Positions 3,479 through 19,993 of a DNA stretch of 22,124 bases are shown piece by piece. The stretch's first letter is position 1, and each line of letters opens with the position of its first letter. The stretch comes from a virus. Both the position numbers and the translations under genes were made by a program. The stretch is taken from positions 1-22,124 of IMG/VR virus record IMGVR_UViG_3300009408_000035; one strand, written 5' to 3'. The notes beneath the pieces were generated by a model. The model ran no database searches. It was not told where the DNA came from and worked only from the letters and a program-made list of their open reading frames with translations.

Positions 3479-4876
3479 TTATCTCCTAAGTACGCTTGGC
3501 GTTTTAACCACCTTCGCAGCCTTTTTCACATCGGTCAAATTCTCAACGCAATCTGACAATGTATCAACCATGTCATCATGTGTAGCCAATGGAAAACCCT
3601 CAAGCTCTTTAAACAACTCATCATTCCACTTAGCCCTCATTATCCTGATATTTCCTATCCCAGCCTGAGCCGATGCAGGTGCAGCACGCACCTCTTTTGA
3701 GCCTGTAACCCTATGCGATTCCACACTGTAACCTGCAACCGCCCTAATATAATCTGCCGCCACAACCTTACCAGCACTTCCAGCGTCTTCAGGTATATGC
3801 CCTACGCATTCTTTCCCATCTTGCTTAGTAGTGTTTACAAAAAGCTCTTTAACCTTCACAGGCGGCATCCTGACACGCTTAATGTCTATCACGTAAATAA
3901 TACCAGCCTCATCAATGCCAGCCTTCATGCCTACAGTCCAATCAGGGTCAGGATTTGTTTCACTTACTGGCGTAGCAGCCAAATCCCAACAACGCACAAC
4001 ATGCTTCATCTTCGGCAGTGCATCAACAACTTCAAACGTGGAACGGTCAAAATAGTCACCAGCACCAGCCCTGATATTCCAGTTGCCGCCTAGCAACCTT
4101 TCCCTATCAACCCTTGGTAATGCTTCAAGATTCGTTATGTAGTTAGGGTCTTCCTTAAGCAGGATTTTATTATCGTAAACATTAGATGCTATGAAAGAAA
4201 ATGACTTTGCCTTTGTCGCATACATAGGCGGTATCGGAGGGAACGCCTTGTCAGCCTCTTCCTGTGTATCAAACCAATATATCTCATCATTCTGATGCAC
4301 AAACCAGCGCACAACACCACTACGCTCTTCAATGGCAAAGCCATTATCATCAATCCACCAATCTACAAGCTGCCTTACCCAACTATCAGGGTCAGGATTG
4401 CATGTTGCTCTCATGTACGGCTTAACACCGCAAACACTTCGATTCCTAGAAAGCATGTAAAAAAACATTTTCTTCGTAAAATGAGTAAGCTCATCAAATA
4501 TAATCAACGGTATCTGAGTTCCCTGCCAATCAATCAGGTCTGCATTCCGCGCCAAATATGCAAAAGACACCTTGCTATTAAACGCATTCCACTTGAATAA
4601 CTTACTATTATTGTTTGGCTTACCTGCCATCAATGGGTACACGCTCATTGCCGTATCCCATAACCCCCCCTCTTTTTCAATTTGCGTAATACTTTTCCTG
4701 AAAATAACAGCACCAAACCCTTTAACGCAAACCCCTCTCCCAGCTTCAAGAATTACACCATAAGTTTTACCACCTCCAGCGGCACCACCATAAACAACAA
4801 TATCTGCCGTACTTGATAAAAACTCAGTCTGCTTCCCTTCCTGCGGCGCAATCTTCCTTACCCTTAGCTTTGCCAC
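3479..4876 (-). CDS. terL: Terminase large subunit (packaging ATPase/nuclease)
   Basis: This 465-residue protein is the DNA-packaging motor. The N-terminal ATPase shows Walker A GGAAGGGKT at residues 30-38 and Walker B LIIFDE with the catalytic acid pair at 128-129. The C-terminal RNase H-like nuclease starts near residue 290 with 'RCWDLAAT', where the Asp is the expected metal ligand; later acidic residues include the 'IPEDAGSAG' segment and the Asp-rich 'THDDMVDTLSD' near the C-terminus. The length is normal for the family. The start is a GTG at 4876 with only a weak ribosome binding site; an overlapping ATG one base upstream is out of frame. Upstream lies a 32-base gap to terS holding a 12-bp palindrome. 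Function is well established for the family. Confidence 0.95.
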   Translation of the reverse strand: MAKLRVRKIAPQEGKQTEFLSSTADIVVYGGAAGGGKTYGVILEAGRGVCVKGFGAVIFRKSITQIEKEGGLWDTAMSVYPLMAGKPNNNSKLFKWNAFNSKVSFAYLARNADLIDWQGTQIPLIIFDELTHFTKKMFFYMLSRNRSVCGVKPYMRATCNPDPDSWVRQLVDWWIDDNGFAIEERSGVVRWFVHQNDEIYWFDTQEEADKAFPPIPPMYATKAKSFSFIASNVYDNKILLKEDPNYITNLEALPRVDRERLLGGNWNIRAGAGDYFDRSTFEVVDALPKMKHVVRCWDLAATPVSETNPDPDWTVGMKAGIDEAGIIYVIDIKRVRMPPVKVKELFVNTTKQDGKECVGHIPEDAGSAGKVVAADYIRAVAGYSVESHRVTGSKEVRAAPASAQAGIGNIRIMRAKWNDELFKELEGFPLATHDDMVDTLSDCVENLTDVKKAAKVVKTPSVLRR

Positions 4877-4908: not shown

Positions 4909-5259
4909 TCACTTAACCCTTCCGTTATCAGGTAGCACAATCTGCACTGGCACAAATCCTTCAGACGCATCAAGCTCAACTCTTTCTACATAGCCCCTAT
5001 CTTTAGCTTTGGTCTTTAACCAAAATATCTGCGCCGCTACACTGCCACCTTTAATGTTCTTTAATAACTCTGTTTCAACAAAGTCCTTTAATTGCTCTAA
5101 ACTATCACCATATTCTTTTTTATAAGTGTCAGATTTGTCAAGCCATGCGTAATGTGTTTGTCTACTAACCCCAACCATTTTACATGCCGCTGATACATTC
5201 CCTGCTGATTTGGTAAGTGCCTCAATCATATCCTTTTTTTTACCTTTCAAATCACTCAC
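4909..5259 (-). CDS. terS: Terminase small subunit
   Basis: This 116-residue protein has an N-terminal helix-turn-helix (about residues 9-37: 'MIEALTKSAGNVSAACKMVGVSRQTHYAWLDKS') of the kind used by small terminases to recognise packaging DNA. A central helical part follows ('LEQLKDFVETELLKNIKGGSVAAQIFWLKTKAKDRGY'), then a short extended tail. The 'IFWLKTKAKDRGY' signature recurs in phage small terminases. The start is GTG (5257-5259) with AGGAG eight bases upstream. The gene overlaps the end of the ParB-methyltransferase gene by eight bases and lies just before terL, so TerS is translated from the same message as the putative modification genes. Confidence 0.88.
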   Translation of the reverse strand: MSDLKGKKKDMIEALTKSAGNVSAACKMVGVSRQTHYAWLDKSDTYKKEYGDSLEQLKDFVETELLKNIKGGSVAAQIFWLKTKAKDRGYVERVELDASEGFVPVQIVLPDNGRVK

Positions 5260-6637
5260 CGTATATCTCCTTATGCCTTTTAATAAATATCGACAATGCC
5301 CTGTTCCTTAAACTATCTAACCTTCTATCCATATATTTAATGCCAAATTCAAAATTTACTGCTTCAATTAGCTCTTTAATACATACCTTATACTTTGGTT
5401 TTATAACTGTTACCTTGCTGTAGTCTGAATCATCTCTTGCAAATCCGCCCTCAAACATTGCTTGTAGCTCATCCTTACCATGAAACATCTGAACCTTTAC
5501 TTTACTTGCCCCCGATACTTGGTTTTCATCTTTTGTTAGCATGGATGATGTTTTCTTTATATCCCCACAAAAAACCCTATTCCTTGATGATGCAACAAGA
5601 ACCTTTGAGCCTATAGACAAGAACTTAGTTAATACAACCACCTTTTCGACATCCTCTTTGAATGGCACGCTGTTTAATACAGCATTTGAAACTACCGCAT
5701 CATAATATCCATGCTCTTCATAATCATCTAAGAATCTTGTTATATTTTCCCTAGTTTCTTCAATGTCAAATATCCCATTCCTTATTGAAAAGGGTTCAAA
5801 CGGTATAATGCATACCCCTCTTTGTCTCATGTATTTGCTTTGCGCTGTATTACCAGCCCCAAAATCAAGTACCCTTTGATAGTTCCTTTTCATATACTCA
5901 ACTAAAAGTTCCCCTCCTTTCCTTAATGATTCAGGAACAAAACTTTTATATGTATACGGTATATCCCACCTTATAAAATGCCTTCTCTGACCAACCCTCA
6001 CTTTGTCTTTTGACTTTTCAAAGTCGTAAGCTGCCGATATTTCCTTGAAAACATCATTCTTGGCATTCTCTGAAATAACCATCGGTACACACCCAAACAT
6101 ATTCATGTATGTATTTGCTCTCTTCAGCCCATTAACAATACACACCCCATTGCTTATAACTGGCACTATTATCTTGCCCTTTCTATAAAGAATCTCTGAA
6201 ACCTTGCACACACCTTCTTTATCATCATTCATTTCACCGTTATTGGCTGTCATTTCATTTAAAGGTCTAAATATGTCATCTATATCATCAAGAGCCTCTA
6301 AGTAGCCTCTAACATCAATCCCTGCCTTTGTATCCTCACCTTCAATTTCTTGCAAAACCCTGTTGAAATTAAAGTTTACAGCCAGTCTCTTCTCTTCGCT
6401 CCAGCCTTTTGTATTTACGATATTAACTACAATATCACTTACACCCATAGCTATTATTGTTTTCGTCCTTTGGTGTCCTGATAAGATAATGCCCCCTTCA
6501 GTGCAATATACTGGACTTAAAACCCCAAGCTTTCTTATTGACAACTCAATCAGTGAATATAACCCATCTTGTGCAACCCTTGGATTCTCCTTTTCGCCCC
6601 TAAGATGCGCCGCCCTAACCTTTCTTAATGCAAACAT
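5252..6637 (-). CDS. ParB-fold / SAM methyltransferase fusion protein
   Basis: I see three parts in this protein of about 461 residues. Residues 1-105 form a ParB/sulfiredoxin-fold domain with the diagnostic box ILSGHQR (51-57) and a following 'FNFNRVLQEIE' helix. Residues about 145-190 look like a second, degenerate ParB box ('VPVISNGVCIVNGLKRANTYM', ending near 178) that has lost the GHGR histidine. From about 215 on there is a class I methyltransferase with SAM-binding motif VLDFGAG (256-262), a later acidic turn ('IIPFEP') and 'YYDAVVSNAVLNSVP' in place of the motif IV region. ParB domains bind CTP or act on nucleic acid, and such fusions occur in phage DNA-modification genes; the substrate here is unknown. 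I prefer the ATG at 6637 because GGAG lies six bases upstream; an ATG at 6649 lacks a ribosome site. The gene overlaps both neighbours. Confidence 0.72.
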   Translation of the reverse strand: MFALRKVRAAHLRGEKENPRVAQDGLYSLIELSIRKLGVLSPVYCTEGGIILSGHQRTKTIIAMGVSDIVVNIVNTKGWSEEKRLAVNFNFNRVLQEIEGEDTKAGIDVRGYLEALDDIDDIFRPLNEMTANNGEMNDDKEGVCKVSEILYRKGKIIVPVISNGVCIVNGLKRANTYMNMFGCVPMVISENAKNDVFKEISAAYDFEKSKDKVRVGQRRHFIRWDIPYTYKSFVPESLRKGGELLVEYMKRNYQRVLDFGAGNTAQSKYMRQRGVCIIPFEPFSIRNGIFDIEETRENITRFLDDYEEHGYYDAVVSNAVLNSVPFKEDVEKVVVLTKFLSIGSKVLVASSRNRVFCGDIKKTSSMLTKDENQVSGASKVKVQMFHGKDELQAMFEGGFARDDSDYSKVTVIKPKYKVCIKELIEAVNFEFGIKYMDRRLDSLRNRALSIFIKRHKEIYGE

Positions 6638-7037
6638 AATCCTCTCCATCGCTAAAAACTATTAACCCATGCCCTGAACACACATCTGCAAGCACTTCTA
6701 AAAATGTTTTCATATCCATTTTACACGTCGCCCAAATAGCAAAAAAACTAGCGTTTAAATAGCTAGTTTTAACCTTGAAAATAATAACCCTAATCTCACC
6801 CTCGAAAGCCTGAATTATAGACGATATACTTACCTTTAAATCAGATATTACCACGGCATCTATAGAGCCGTCACACTTTGCCTTTATTGCCCCATTCAGT
6901 GCCTTTAATGTTTTCACCCCCACCATATCTGTATTCGTGTGTATACTTTGAATAAATCTTAACGCCACCTTTTCATTTGGTACAAAAATGCCCTCACCAT
7001 CGCACTGCACCGCTATCTTTTTTGATTTACTTAACAT
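6615..7037 (-). CDS. Uncharacterised protein of the modification cassette
   Basis: This 140-residue protein is not one I recognise. It alternates hydrophobic strands and helices in an alpha/beta pattern (for example 'AVVISDL', 'IRVIIFKVK', 'SFFAIWATC', 'HGLIVFS'), has four Cys and no obvious catalytic box. It overlaps the ParB gene upstream by 11 bases and the ParB-methyltransferase downstream by 23-35 bases, so it is part of the same translational chain. The start ATG has GAGG six bases upstream. One possibility is a degenerate Rossmann-like or methyltransferase-like accessory subunit, but I cannot show a SAM motif. Confidence 0.6.
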   Translation of the reverse strand: MLSKSKKIAVQCDGEGIFVPNEKVALRFIQSIHTNTDMVGVKTLKALNGAIKAKCDGSIDAVVISDLKVSISSIIQAFEGEIRVIIFKVKTSYLNASFFAIWATCKMDMKTFLEVLADVCSGHGLIVFSDGEDYVCIKKG

Positions 7038-7590
7038 ATTTAGCCTCTATACACTTTATTCCTCTCCCCTCCATTTCCAGCCTTAAATCTTCCCTGTGCT
7101 TGTCATCACAAACAATCACAAAACATGCTTTTTTATCTACTGTGGTTTTAAATGCTTTCTTTGTCATATCAATGTCTAATATTGATTCAGAGAAAACATC
7201 GACCAGCCCATCAAAACTTAAAACCGAAACATCAAAATCAACATCCTCATCCATTATTCCTGAAACTGTTTTTACAACCATCCCCTTGTCTAAATACCCT
7301 GTCCTTGCAGACTGATTATCAAACAATCTAAACCTGTTTTTTTGGTCTTCAGAAAGCCCCGAAACCATAAGAACCTCCAGTTCAGTTTCCTTGCCTATGT
7401 TTTTCATTGCGCTAACTCGACCATGCCCCGAAAGAATCCTATTGTCTTCATCTATGATTACTGGTGTAACATACCCAACCTGCTTTATTGAAGCCTCAAT
7501 TAAATGATTGTTTTCTTCAGTGTGAATCTTCTCATTATGCTCATCAACCAATAAATCATTTATCTTTAATGTTATAAGTTCCTTTTTCAT
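7027..7590 (-). CDS. ParB/Srx-fold protein
   Basis: This 187-residue protein contains a clear ParB/sulfiredoxin-like domain in its first 100 residues: 'IKQVGYVTPVIIDEDNRILSGHGR' ends in the GHGR box that binds nucleotide (CTP in chromosomal ParB), followed by 'SAMKNIG' and a helical 'FRLFDNQSARTGYLD' segment typical of phage and methyltransferase-linked ParB-like proteins. The last 60 residues form a separate small alpha/beta part. There is no helix-turn-helix for parS binding, so it is not a partition protein. The start has AGGGG five bases upstream of ATG. It sits between a CmoA-like enzyme and a second ParB-fold protein, which points to nucleic-acid modification. Confidence 0.8.
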   Translation of the reverse strand: MKKELITLKINDLLVDEHNEKIHTEENNHLIEASIKQVGYVTPVIIDEDNRILSGHGRVSAMKNIGKETELEVLMVSGLSEDQKNRFRLFDNQSARTGYLDKGMVVKTVSGIMDEDVDFDVSVLSFDGLVDVFSESILDIDMTKKAFKTTVDKKACFVIVCDDKHREDLRLEMEGRGIKCIEAKYVK

Positions 7591-8803: not shown

Positions 8804-8982
8804 TTCTTCAACCCCTTTTGTCGTTTAGTTACTGCTTTTCCATCGCTGATAATCTTTTCTGCACATTCGATTGTGATTCCATAATGGCTTGCAAAAGCAT
8901 CAACCGTTAGAAAGTTATTTACCCAATCAAGGTACATTTCCTGCTTTTTCTTCTTGTTTATCTTTCGCATTACGACTCTCAT
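8800..8982 (-). CDS. Small basic protein with a possible helix-turn-helix
   Basis: This 60-residue, Lys-rich protein has a predicted helical core ('YLDWVNNFLTVDAFASHYGIT' ends near residue 38) with helix-turn-helix spacing: VDAFASHYG as first helix and turn, IECAEKIISDG as second helix. Its ATG overlaps the stop of the clamp-like gene (ATGA) and its end overlaps the HAD-like gene by four bases. It may be a small DNA-binding protein. The exact function is unknown. Confidence 0.62.
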   Translation of the reverse strand: MRVVMRKINKKKKQEMYLDWVNNFLTVDAFASHYGITIECAEKIISDGKAVTKRQKGLKK

Positions 8983-9560
8983 CGCACAGGCATTAGAATC
9001 ATTTTAATGCCTGATTTTTCTGATTCTGCCTTTCCACCAAAAAATACATTTGCAGGATTCAGGCTTCCGTTAAATACAACATTCACAGTCTCGCCATCCA
9101 TACCTGCCACTTTTGCTACCTTGGCAAGGTACGCCGCATTAAACGCAACGCTCAAACACCCATCACGCCCATCTTCAAATTCTTTATCAAACTGTGTCCA
9201 CTCAGGAAATGTACCATCAACAACATCAGCAACAATTAGCTGACGCTTGTTATTCTTACGCACCTTGAATTTTCCAACCCAAGCGGTGATATGACCTTCA
9301 TTTTCTTCAATCACAAGCTCCGCATCAAATCCTGAACCATATTGAGCAGACGAAAGCTGCTTTGCAGCAACAATCATTTTATCACCATCAAAAGGCTCTA
9401 CACAATCCTTACAGATAACCATGTAGTGACTATTCGTTGCCACAACCGTTCCATCAGGCTCAATCAACACACCTGTCAAATAACTCCTTGTCTCATCAAG
9501 ACTTACAGCCGCTTGGCAAGCTGCAAATCCTCGCTTATTTTTAATAACAATTTTCATCAT
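8979..9560 (-). CDS. Short sliding-clamp-like (DnaN-type) protein
   Basis: This 193-residue protein resembles the DNA polymerase III beta clamp in its later part: 'GTFPEWTQF' matches the [Y/F]P[D/E][Y/W] element before the last clamp domain, and the protein ends in ILMPVR like the beta-clamp ending VVMPMRL. Bacterial clamps have about 366 residues and three domains; this one could hold only two, similar in size to T4 gp45. A sliding clamp encircles DNA and tethers polymerase. The true start is the ATG pair at 9560/9557, preceded by a strong G-rich ribosome site; a longer reading frame up to 9614 crosses the promoter and is spurious. It is the first full gene after promoter A, and its ATG overlaps the stop of a 13-residue leader peptide. 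Confidence 0.62.
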   Translation of the reverse strand: MMKIVIKNKRGFAACQAAVSLDETRSYLTGVLIEPDGTVVATNSHYMVICKDCVEPFDGDKMIVAAKQLSSAQYGSGFDAELVIEENEGHITAWVGKFKVRKNNKRQLIVADVVDGTFPEWTQFDKEFEDGRDGCLSVAFNAAYLAKVAKVAGMDGETVNVVFNGSLNPANVFFGGKAESEKSGIKMILMPVR

Positions 9561-9598
9561 ACTCTCCCCCTCATCTTTCTTGTTTGGTTTCCTGCCAT
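9557..9598 (-). CDS. Leader peptide A (MAGNQTRKMRGRV)
   Basis: A 13-codon reading frame starts at ATG 9596-9598. The promoter -10 hexamer ends exactly six bases upstream, so the transcript should begin at this ATG or next to it and have no 5' leader. The stop TGA (9557-9559) overlaps the clamp gene ATG (9558-9560), which would couple its translation. Its first seven residues, MAGNQTR/K/N, recur in leaders B and D and, with one change, in C. Confidence 0.5.
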   Translation of the reverse strand: MAGNQTRKMRGRV

Positions 9599-9604
9599 GT
9601 GGAA

Positions 9605-9633
9605 ATCTTACCATGTTTTTGTTACTTTGTAAA
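9605..9633 (-). promoter_or_regulatory. Promoter A (extended -10, drives clamp to capsid operon)
   Basis: On the minus strand TTTACA (9628-9633) is followed by 17 bases and TAAGAT (9605-9610), with TGg just before it as an extended -10. Six bases separate the hexamer from the ATG at 9598. A core AACAAAAACA lies in the spacer. No terminator is visible downstream, so this promoter could serve the clamp, modification, packaging and head genes. Confidence 0.75.
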
Positions 9634-9662
9634 GTGTTTTAACTGTTTTTTGTTTAATCTGC

Positions 9663-9729
9663 CTTTACGCATGGTGACTGATAGGCGATGAGGGAGGGAG
9701 GGGAAACCTACCAATCACCATGCGTAAAG
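9663..9729. repeat. Long inverted repeat with G-rich loop
   Basis: Arms of 15 bases (9663-9677 and 9715-9729) are perfectly complementary, and an inner pair (9678-9685 with 9707-9714) matches at six of eight positions. The 21-base loop holds three runs of G (GGGAGGGAGGGG) on the plus strand. No U-run follows on either strand, so it is not a standard intrinsic terminator. It fills most of the gap between the SSB operon and promoter A and could be a replication origin element, a protein-binding site or an RNA processing hairpin. Confidence 0.75.
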
Positions 9730-9752
9730 ATGCTGACTACTTCGCCAACTTT

Positions 9753-9950
9753 TCATCCTGCAAGCTCAAACAATTCTGCTGGTCGCCTCATGTTGCACTT
9801 ACCATCAAATCCATCGAACTCTAATGTGACTTGGGCTTCATGCTCCTGCTTATCTGCATTCCACCCACGACCATTCACACCACTTACCCTGAATACTCTT
9901 CCTTCATATCGCTCACCTGTGTAACGAACAACATCGTCAATATTGAACAT
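9753..9950 (-). CDS. Small uncharacterised protein, last gene of SSB operon
   Basis: This 65-residue acidic protein begins MFNIDDVVRYTGERYEGRV. Its pattern (VVRYTG, GRVFRVSGV, QVTLEFDGFDG, MRRPAELFEL) suggests a small SH3/KOW-like beta barrel, common in phage accessory proteins. It follows ssb by two bases and is the last gene before the large inverted repeat. Function unknown. Confidence 0.65.
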   Translation of the reverse strand: MFNIDDVVRYTGERYEGRVFRVSGVNGRGWNADKQEHEAQVTLEFDGFDGKCNMRRPAELFELAG

Positions 9951-9952
9951 CG

Positions 9953-10327
9953 TTAATACGGAATATCACCATCTACAGGTACATCATCTACTGGTTTCTG
10001 CTGACCGCCATCCTTATTGCCACCAATCAAGTCCAGCTTATCAACACTTACCTCAACCGATGTGCGTTTGATGCCATCTTTATCATCATATTCACGGATG
10101 CGTAACTCACCACTAATAGCAACTTGTGTACCTTTTACCAAATATTTAGGCAACTGACCTTCGGCACGCTTACCAAACAAGGAACAACGCAACCAGTTCG
10201 TACCTTTATTTTCTCCAAAACCATAGTCCACTGCTACAGAAAACGAGCAAATCGCCATGCCGCCAAGTCCAAACCGCGTTTCACTATCCCGCGCCAATCG
10301 TCCTGTAAAACTATAAACATTCACCAC
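9953..10327 (-). CDS. ssb: Single-stranded DNA-binding protein
   Basis: This 124-residue OB-fold protein coats single-stranded DNA in replication and recombination. It begins MVNVYSFTGRLARDSETRF, and includes 'FSVAVDYGF', 'NWLRCSLFGKRAE', 'KYLVKGTQVAISGEL' and 'SVEVSVDKLDLIG', all standard SSB segments through about residue 103. A Gln/Pro/Asp-rich linker leads to the tail DGDIPY, a variant of the DDDIPF tip that recruits partner proteins. The start is a GTG at 10327 with GGAG four bases upstream, and the stop of the small membrane protein gene overlaps it. It is in the same operon as the RecE-like nuclease and annealing protein. Confidence 0.93.
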   Translation of the reverse strand: MVNVYSFTGRLARDSETRFGLGGMAICSFSVAVDYGFGENKGTNWLRCSLFGKRAEGQLPKYLVKGTQVAISGELRIREYDDKDGIKRTSVEVSVDKLDLIGGNKDGGQQKPVDDVPVDGDIPY

Positions 10328-13743: not shown

Positions 13744-13772
13744 CGTGCCTCCAACTTTTCTTTAATTCCCAT
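13740..13772 (-). CDS. Leader peptide R (MGIKEKLEAR)
   Basis: A 10-codon frame starts at ATG 13770-13772, six bases after the -10-like hexamer of the diverged promoter module R. Its TGA overlaps the ATG of the RecE-like gene, as leader A does with the clamp gene. The peptide itself is not MAGNQT-like; only the architecture and flanking DNA match. Confidence 0.35.
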   Translation of the reverse strand: MGIKEKLEAR

Positions 13773-13778
13773 GTGCAA

Positions 13779-13807
13779 AGCTTAACAATTATTCGTTCAT
13801 TCGTACA
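13779..13807 (-). promoter_or_regulatory. Promoter-like module R (diverged copy of promoter A)
   Basis: From 13816 to the ATG at 13772 this stretch matches the promoter A region at about three of four positions without a gap. The -10 equivalent is TAAGCT (13779-13784) with TG one base upstream as an extended -10. The -35 equivalent TGTACG (13802-13807) is poor. It may be a weak or activator-dependent promoter for the recombination genes. It begins in the stop codon of the upstream gene. Confidence 0.45.
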
Positions 13808-13812
13808 GTGTT

Positions 13813-14052
13813 TTAAACATTATTGTTTACAACTACATCCTTTACTACAGATAGAACTACATACCCTTCAGCCAGCCCAAGCCCTGAATGAACATGGGTT
13901 ATCACAAAATAATACTCAGCAATATCATCATGGAATATCAACCTGTCTTCAGCCTGATAATCCCTGTCATTAAAACGAACTTCGCATTTCTTCTTGCCAA
14001 GAACCAAATTTATTAAACGCTCTCTTCCAATCTTCAGCTTATGGTCAGTCAT
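13813..14052 (-). CDS. DUF3850 (ASCH/PUA-like) protein
   Basis: This 79-residue protein matches the DUF3850 pattern: 'HKLKIGRERLINLVLGKKKCE' (residues 3-23), then 'EVRFNDRDYQAEDRLIF', a short beta strand and 'GLGLAEGYVVLSV'. DUF3850 is an ASCH/PUA-like fold, thought to bind RNA or modified nucleotides. Its ATG lies inside the end of the upstream small gene. In this phage it could bind a transcript or a modified base; that is inference. Confidence 0.8.
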   Translation of the reverse strand: MTDHKLKIGRERLINLVLGKKKCEVRFNDRDYQAEDRLIFHDDIAEYYFVITHVHSGLGLAEGYVVLSVVKDVVVNNNV

Positions 14053-14908: not shown

Positions 14909-15345
14909 TATTCTTCCCCCTCACTCGAAACTTCGTATGCAAGGTCTTCAAGAGCAAACCAAGCCATTGCATTTTTCACCTGAACCTCAGCATCATTCTC
15001 ACATGCAGGGTCAAACAACACTTCGCCAATTTCATCTTCTGAATAATTATCATTCAGGCAGTTGAAACTTTTTACCATTCCAATCATTCCACATTCACAA
15101 TTCTCTTCTGATTTTTCCTTTAGAAGCTGAAGCAATGCGTTCCTGTTATCATTAAAGAACTTCACCGTATCGCTGTAATACACAAACTTCCCATAACCAC
15201 CTGCCGCGCCATGCTCTGCGACCTGTTTCAAATCATCCTTACACTCTTCATCCAACTCTTCATATCCAAGCTGTTCAATTACTGCCTTCTTTAATCCCTC
15301 GTTCATTTTGTTCACCTCGCTTTTTTTTGTTTGGTTTCCTGCCAT
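14908..15345 (-). CDS. DUF7222-like early protein with leader B fused in frame
   Basis: The body (from MNEG at 15306) has 132 residues. It shows 'EHGAAGGYGKFVYYSDTVKF' (up to residue 59 of that form), 'FFNDNRNALLQLL', 'FNCL', 'DEIGEVLFDP' and 'NAMAWFALEDLAYEV', the pattern of a phage family I recall as DUF7222. Function is unknown. Two starts are possible. ATG 15345 is the leaderless MAGNQT start of promoter B and is here in frame, adding 13 residues. ATG 15306 has its own GAGGTG seven bases upstream. Both may be used. It is the first gene after promoter B and terminator B. Confidence 0.72.
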   Translation of the reverse strand: MAGNQTKKSEVNKMNEGLKKAVIEQLGYEELDEECKDDLKQVAEHGAAGGYGKFVYYSDTVKFFNDNRNALLQLLKEKSEENCECGMIGMVKSFNCLNDNYSEDEIGEVLFDPACENDAEVQVKNAMAWFALEDLAYEVSSEGEE

Positions 15346-15351
15346 GTGAAA

Positions 15352-15380
15352 ATTCTACACTGTTTTTGTTTATTATGCAA
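15352..15380 (-). promoter_or_regulatory. Promoter B with operator-like direct repeats
   Basis: TTGCAT (15375-15380), 17 bases, TAGAAT (15352-15357), then six bases to ATG 15345. A 14-base element (AATAAACAAAAACA) lies in the spacer at 15361-15374, and a copy with one change lies just upstream of the -35 at 15381-15394, 20 bases apart. It drives the early and recombination operon. Confidence 0.82.
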
Positions 15381-15413
15381 GGTTTTTGTTTATTTTGATT
15401 GTCGCCATGACAT

Positions 15414-15441
15414 AAAAAAAGCCACCCGAAGGCAGCTTTTT
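15414..15441 (-). terminator. Intrinsic terminator B
   Basis: On the minus strand a stem GCTGCC/GGTGGC, flanked by A-run and U-run, closes on a UUCG tetraloop (15427-15430), with two G-U pairs, and ends in seven T. It follows the dUTPase fragment and insulates promoter B from the operon upstream. Confidence 0.88.
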
Positions 15442-15458
15442 CGTTGGTAATGTTAGGT

Positions 15459-15524
15459 TTACTTGCCTGTTGAACCGAATCCACCATCACCACGCTCAGT
15501 CTCATCAAGTTCCTCAACAACCAT
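15459..15524 (-). CDS. dUTPase motif-V fragment as a 21-residue ORF
   Basis: The frame reads MVVEELDETERGDGGFGSTG followed by K and TAA. It is the C-terminal arm of trimeric dUTPases, where VVEELDETERG...GGFGSTG is motif V that folds over the active site. No other dUTPase motif is found upstream; an in-frame stop lies at 15540-15542. It has GAGG five bases before ATG, and the ATG overlaps the stop of the preceding micro-ORF (TGATG). It is most simply the tail of a deleted dut gene, but the well-placed start signals mean it could still be translated. Confidence 0.7.
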   Translation of the reverse strand: MVVEELDETERGDGGFGSTGK

Positions 15525-17596: not shown

Positions 17597-17633
17597 ACAC
17601 ACCTCGCTTTTTGTTTGTTTGGCTTCCTGCCAT
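17571..17633 (-). CDS. Leader peptide C (MAGSQTNKKRGV...)
   Basis: This 20-residue frame starts at ATG 17631-17633, six bases after the -10 of promoter C. It begins MAGSQTNKKRGVYV and ends at TGA 17571-17573, 25 bases inside the following gene and in another frame. In this copy the stop does not coincide with the next start, so coupling would be by overlap. Confidence 0.42.
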   Translation of the reverse strand: MAGSQTNKKRGVYVNSIIGK

Positions 17634-17639
17634 GTGAAA

Positions 17640-17668
17640 ATTCTACACTGTTTTTGTTTATTGTGCAA
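17640..17668 (-). promoter_or_regulatory. Promoter C with operator-like direct repeats
   Basis: TTGCAC (17663-17668), 17 bases, TAGAAT (17640-17645), six bases to ATG 17633. A 14-base repeat lies in the spacer (17649-17662) and a copy matching at its last 11 bases lies at 17669-17682. There is no terminator here, unlike B and D; the upstream gene ends 26 bases before the -35. Confidence 0.82.
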
Positions 17669-17693
17669 TGTTTTTGTTTACATCTCTCCAGCA

Positions 17694-19275: not shown

Positions 19276-19331
19276 TTTAATCTCCGCACCCCGTAAGCCT
19301 GTGCCGCTTTGTTTGTTTGGTTTCCTGCCAT
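19272..19331 (-). CDS. Leader peptide D (MAGNQTNKAAQAYGVRRLK)
   Basis: A 19-codon frame starts at ATG 19329-19331, six bases after the -10 of promoter D. Its TGA (19272-19274) overlaps the ATG of the next gene (19273-19275), the same arrangement as leader A and leader R. Confidence 0.5.
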   Translation of the reverse strand: MAGNQTNKAAQAYGVRRLK

Positions 19332-19337
19332 GTGAAA

Positions 19338-19366
19338 ATTCTACACTGTTTTTGTTTATTGTGCAA
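19338..19366 (-). promoter_or_regulatory. Promoter D with operator-like direct repeats
   Basis: TTGCAC (19361-19366), 17 bases, TAGAAT (19338-19343), six bases to ATG 19331. Two perfect 14-base copies of AATAAACAAAAACA flank the -35 on both sides (19367-19380 and 19347-19360), 20 bases apart, so a bound regulator would cover the promoter. This is the first promoter after the lysis genes. Confidence 0.85.
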
Positions 19367-19399
19367 TGTTTTTGTTTATTTTGATTGTCGCCATAGCAT

Positions 19400-19428
19400 A
19401 AAAAAAGCCGCCCGAAGGCAGCTTTTTC
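19400..19428 (-). terminator. Intrinsic terminator D, after the lysis genes
   Basis: A stem of 11 pairs (19402-19412 with 19417-19427) with one G-U pair closes on a UUCG tetraloop and is followed by T residues on the minus strand. It lies 17 bases after the endolysin stop and ends the late lysis transcript. The A/T-flanked symmetry could allow some action in the other direction. Confidence 0.9.
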
Positions 19429-19444
19429 GTTGGTAATGTTTGGC

Positions 19445-19993
19445 TTACACCCTGTTTTTGAACCATCCGTAAATATACTTCTCATCTTTCTCACGGCGTT
19501 CAGAAAGCTCTACATAGAAAGCCCCCTGCAAACAATTCAGCATCTTGTACAGAATTTCAGCACCTTCAATTCCACGCTTATCCATCAAAGCATTGAATGC
19601 CGATAACGTGCCACTACCAACCTGACCATCAACACCAATATCACCATACAATGCACCTCTGTTATTCAATACATTCAATGAGCGTTGCAAGAATTTACCT
19701 GCACGACCCACACCCATATTCACAGCAGTATCAGCAAGCTCTTCAGCTACCAATCCACTCACTTCAGCGATTGCATCAAGCTTCAACTTATCCCAATACA
19801 AAACAACATACACACTGAATGCAAATTCTCTCGACATACCCTTCATCGTGCCTTTGTAGCCATATTTGCGTGCAACCTTTTCGGTCACGCCAAAGTTCGT
19901 TTCGCCACCACTGTCATCTGAATCATTAACGTATCCACCTTCACGCTTAATAATCTCATTGATTACCCTTGCCTTCAATCCATCTACTGACAC
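19445..19993 (-). CDS. GH108-type endolysin (muramidase)
   Basis: This 182-residue protein matches the GH108 lysozyme family: 'IIKREGGYVNDSDDSGGETN' then FGVT holds the catalytic Glu in the EGGYVND...GGxTxxGVT motif (about residues 17-38). 'ELADTAVNMGVGRAGKFLQRS' and 'GVDGQVGSGTLSAFNAL' follow as in the family's second, peptidoglycan-binding part. It cleaves the glycan backbone of the cell wall at the end of infection. There is no signal peptide, so it needs the holin encoded just upstream (11-base gap). Length is normal for the family. Confidence 0.93.
   Translation of the reverse strand: MSVDGLKARVINEIIKREGGYVNDSDDSGGETNFGVTEKVARKYGYKGTMKGMSREFAFSVYVVLYWDKLKLDAIAEVSGLVAEELADTAVNMGVGRAGKFLQRSLNVLNNRGALYGDIGVDGQVGSGTLSAFNALMDKRGIEGAEILYKMLNCLQGAFYVELSERREKDEKYIYGWFKNRV

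Follow-up and report, generated by a model that had tools for sequence, protein, structure and literature searches.

The junction between the single-strand DNA-binding protein (SSB) operon and the clamp-packaging operon (clamp operon for short) of this phage carries a long hairpin. We propose, with a probability of roughly one half, that it acts as an operon-junction mRNA element, which, judging from its sequence and setting, would fix the 3' terminus of the upstream transcript and uncouple the two operons. The window, i.e., the whole virus record that was analyzed (22,124 bases), is that of a tailed phage, a virus of bacteria. All convincing genes lie on the minus strand and include those for portal, terminase, endolysin, SSB, exonuclease VIII-like, and clamp-like proteins (features of the junction are collected in Table 1). 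The nearest named endolysins belong to a Shewanella phage (60.5%) and a Vibrio phage (57.4%), which is no more than a hint that the host is gammaproteobacterial. Two ParB-like genes (5252-6649 and 7027-7590) are found between clamp and terminase; the longer one, 5252-6649, also harbors a methyltransferase domain and matches phrog_5475, a family of unknown function. At its 3' end, the clamp coding sequence contains a palindrome of 12 to 13 bp (8987-9013) followed by a T run on the plus strand, on which no gene is evident.

Table 1. Features at the junction of the SSB and clamp operons (positions in the window)
Feature	Position	Strand	Remark
Clamp-like protein (DNA polymerase III beta central domain)	8979..9560	-	First gene past the junction
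Clamp gene ribosome-binding region, GATGAGGGGGAGAG	9562..9575	-	Complementary to hairpin loop
Promoter A, TTTACA-17-TAAGAT	9605..9633	-	One of five related cassettes
AAACAAAAAACAG element of promoter cassette	9643..9655	-	7 nt downstream of stem in the direction of transcription
Hairpin	9663..9729	-	Arms 9707-9729 and 9663-9685; 24 RNA pairs including G-U
Apical loop	9686..9706	-	Pyrimidine-rich in mRNA, TTTCCCCTCCCTCCCTCATCG
65-aa ORF, no function assigned	9753..9950	-	Last gene of upstream operon
SSB (single-strand DNA-binding protein)	9953..10327	-	Upstream operon

The hairpin is real and far beyond chance. Its two arms of 23 nt each, 91% complementary and 21 nt apart, give a Watson-Crick stem score of 17 (+1/-2 scoring), whereas no other short-range inverted repeat in the window scores above 9. 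In 60 dinucleotide shuffles of the window, the best stem scores averaged 10.35 and never exceeded 13. The hairpin also had the lowest energy of all 90-nt folds on both strands. These results bear out the earlier note, which had singled it out as the strongest hairpin of the window, with 15 perfect outer pairs and no U-tract. The outer 15 pairs are indeed perfect, and a U-tract after the stem is absent on both strands, the tails being CAGATTAAAC (minus) and ATGCTGACTA (plus).

Folded as minus-strand RNA, the region forms one unbroken stem of 24 to 25 pairs (25 if the terminal U-G at 9730/9662 is included) with an energy of -42.7 kcal/mol and a z score of -9.70, while plus-strand RNA reaches -30.8 kcal/mol and a z score of -4.68; on either strand, none of 200 shuffles folded as well. 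The strands differ because the inner pairs are G-U on the minus strand. The inner eight positions had been described as only partly paired, which holds on a Watson-Crick count, but both inner mismatches are G-U pairs in minus-strand RNA. The hairpin is thus a feature of the coding-strand RNA. Likewise, the G-rich loop of the earlier description is correct for the plus strand and not for the transcript: since all convincing genes are on the minus strand, the loop is C-rich in mRNA, where it reads UUUCCCCUCCCUCCCUCAUCG and measures 19 to 21 nt.

The strand on which the hairpin pairs best also bears on the suggestion that it functions as a DNA hairpin, namely, as a replication origin or single-strand initiation site. 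Replication and recombination genes adjoin it, and the plus strand folds as well (z score of -4.7). However, the better fold is that of minus-strand RNA, and each of the 22 one-kb windows has a negative GC skew, with no change of sign at the hairpin. DnaA-like boxes occur only at 3522, 14214, and 16768, none of them within 4 kb, and apart from the promoter cassette, the repeat scan listed no convincing direct-repeat family around the hairpin. We therefore rejected an origin on skew, initiator boxes, and repeats, and consider it very improbable.

We compared the length of the helix across 39 sequences totaling 633,755 bases (window included, some near-duplicates) and found a longer one only in the palindrome beside the protelomerase gene of Halomonas phage phiHAP-1. 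A protelomerase target site was rejected here, since the 21-nt asymmetric loop contrasts with the near-perfect palindrome of such a site. In Rhodoferax phage P26218, an intergenic hairpin of 17 pairs that also lacks a U-tract follows the coat-protein region (9115-9160) and is possibly a further case of the same kind.

The loop is unusual in its own right. On the coding strand of the window, a pyrimidine run of at least 12 was found only in the hairpin loop. Among 500 shuffles, 110 contained a run of at least 12 but none a run of 17. Nevertheless, 19 runs of at least 17 were present in the 1,306,244 strand-bases of other sequences compared, indicating that phages do contain runs of this length. 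The 78-nt window of the coding strand with the highest C-minus-G value (17; equaled in 0 of 500 shuffles) starts at 9706 and includes the 3' arm of the hairpin, which is itself paired in the fold.

The earlier note had placed the hairpin upstream of promoter A, at the boundary between the replication-recombination genes and the clamp-packaging operon; the operon that ends there is the SSB operon. Its final stop codon, that of the 65-aa ORF, precedes the stem by 23 nt, and the hairpin is not crossed by any minus-strand ORF of at least 60 aa. Ten gaps of at least 60 nt separate called genes, and only this one contains so long a stem. Promoter A belongs to five related minus-strand cassettes at about 9601, 13775, 15348, 17636, and 19334 (extents 9575-9645, 13769-13816, 15322-15462, 17610-17680, and 19308-19448), whose transcription starts were inferred from the promoter match. 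CACATGG follows the -10 element in all five, and a longer common leader is present in four. The cassettes at 15322-15462 and 19308-19448 share 94% identity across 141 nt, terminator included. Each of these two (15348 and 19334) is directly preceded by a GC-rich hairpin that has seven consecutive T; at promoter A, the long U-less hairpin occupies the slot that these U-tract terminators hold. The cassettes at 13775 and 17636 have no comparable hairpin in front.

Searches by protein, pattern, and promoter motif found no relatives sharing the hairpin junction. Of 27 terminase relatives (48% identity in the best full-length match and 55% in the best partial one), 2 share one further gene, which is ParB-like, the other 25 share none at an E value of 1e-4, and none carries the junction genes. 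The portal query returned one locus (23%), and the clamp alignment search returned only the Sodalis phage SO-1 region; scans with the clamp, the exonuclease, and the promoter motif likewise gave no relative with this junction. Clamp relatives detected by tblastn were about 25 to 26% identical and differently placed in both records examined. In the clamp relatives from Dhillonvirus, the clamp gene stands alone on the strand opposite to its neighbors, so that the junction is not comparable. Weak blastn matches (E values of at least 0.02, covering 12 to 16% of the query) were attributed to chance, and the Rfam covariance models gave no match in the window at the gathering score.

The hairpin could also be a REP- or MITE-like palindrome, mobile or host derived, that landed between the operons and has no phage function. 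It is indeed an isolated long palindrome without a U-tract, present in a single copy in the phage. Yet the arm-pair pattern had no match in viral_contigs or genome_contigs, there was no convincing match in phages or plasmids, and no flanking target duplication was seen by eye. We rejected a REP, MITE, or host repeat on the lack of copies in the window, viral_contigs, and genome_contigs, a search by exact arm-pair pattern that diverged copies could escape, and regard this origin of the hairpin as improbable.

How might a hairpin in this position act on the message? A canonical intrinsic terminator was rejected on either strand: there is no U-tract, the hairpin does not appear in the terminator scan, and its loop of 19 to 21 nt compares with 3 to 8 nt in that scan. 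A U-less ("I-shaped") terminator of the phiC31 early-region type, in which the stem alone would stall or release RNA polymerase, is a candidate way of stopping transcription here, although a rather unlikely one. Ingham, Hunter, and Smith reportedly described in 1995 Rho-independent terminators without poly-U tails in actinophage phiC31. The setting is alike, with a stable intergenic stem that lacks a U-tail, lies between phage operons, and precedes a promoter, which is the structure expected of such a terminator. Our scan of the phiC31 plus strand (at least 12 pairs, below -15 kcal/mol) recovered 12 intergenic hairpins, several of which have few T after them (29590-29626 and 31155-31193, for example). 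However, those hairpins have 12 to 20 pairs and are mostly GC-rich, whereas the present one, from an unrelated phage, has 24 to 25 pairs and a pyrimidine-rich loop of 19 to 21 nt. A 19-nt loop on a stem of 24 to 25 bp is also larger than in usual terminators. Passages of PMC5335608 present literature both for and against U-less terminators, including cited work in which mycobacterial polymerase required a U-tract in vitro.

In the operon-junction reading that we prefer, read-through from the SSB operon would produce an RNA carrying, 23 nt past the stop codon, the 24- to 25-bp stem and its C-rich loop, whereas RNA made from promoter A would begin past the hairpin and lack the stem. Most likely, host RNase III would cut the long stem and/or Rho would release the RNA, the latter in the C-rich, G-poor stretch that starts at the loop, and the stem would then block 3'-to-5' exonucleases and protect the upstream 3' end. 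The far stronger fold on the transcribed strand and the location shortly after a stop codon and directly before a promoter cassette speak for such a role. The missing U-tract and the two of four sister cassettes (13775 and 17636) without such a hairpin speak against it, and a very stable stem need not terminate transcription or be cleaved. The earlier proposals of a roadblock between operons or an RNA processing site fit the inter-operon position, the RNA-strand asymmetry, the two-turn stem, and the terminator slot.

RNase III substrates comprise about two turns, or at least 20 bp, of double-stranded RNA. With 24 to 25 contiguous predicted pairs, the stem is predicted to be long enough for such a substrate. 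The RNase III sites of T7 have internal loops and are located after promoters, whereas the stem here is unbroken and precedes one. It nevertheless resembles the sites of T7, T3, and lambda in being a long double-stranded intergenic stem in a phage polycistronic RNA, and RNase III targets several sites in the RNAs of these phages, as passages of PMC5371410 describe. Rho sites are C-rich and G-poor, and after Rho-dependent termination, exonuclease trims the transcript back to a stem-loop, according to sections of PMC9927376. The junction likewise combines a message-end stem-loop with a C-rich, G-poor stretch, but much of its C excess is within the hairpin itself, and the pairing of the 3' arm in the C-rich window is at odds with the lack of structure expected of a Rho site. 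The sequence does not decide among RNase III, Rho, and U-less termination.

The C-rich loop raises a further, unlikely alternative, namely, a translational switch. In the read-through RNA, the loop would pair with the ribosome-binding site of the clamp gene, some 90 nt further downstream than the stem, and clamp synthesis would be confined to the hairpin-free transcripts that start at promoter A. In its specific form, which we hold to be slightly less probable still, the stem would display an anti-Shine-Dalgarno loop, and a long-range pseudoknot with GATGAGGGGGAGAG would silence the clamp on SSB-operon messages, leaving promoter A as its only source. In favor of this, the clamp start region ranked first of 41 start regions in predicted pairing with the loop (-22.8 kcal/mol). 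The significance is modest, however, since 53 of 2,000 shuffled start regions and 149 of 2,000 shuffled loops paired equally well, and three other sites in the window pair better with the loop. The mean predicted pairing of the clamp Shine-Dalgarno sequence was 0.80 to 0.84 for RNAs starting at or upstream of 9617 and 0.18 to 0.30, i.e., mostly open, for those starting at or downstream of 9609. This occlusion is independent of the hairpin, being already present with a start at 9617, and the other four cassettes, with start codons picked by a simple rule, gave a mixed picture. Gene e of T4 offers a precedent: passages of PMC3014915 describe a start site sequestered in longer transcripts. The clamp is alike in that its start region is predicted to be hidden in longer RNA and open in promoter-proximal RNA, although here this is a prediction only, and the long hairpin is unnecessary for the pairing. 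Once processed, the hairpin might also target other G-rich start sites in trans.

Overall, the sequence supports the hairpin well as a strong element of a known kind whose loop is unusual; the class of function that we propose for it is ordinary, and its exact mechanism is putative. Should the hairpin form the operon boundary, this phage would provide a clear and testable case in which both ordinary terminators and a long U-less hairpin are used ahead of repeats of a single promoter. Should the loop control translation of the clamp as well, a compact switch would tie the expression of the replication genes to that of the clamp.
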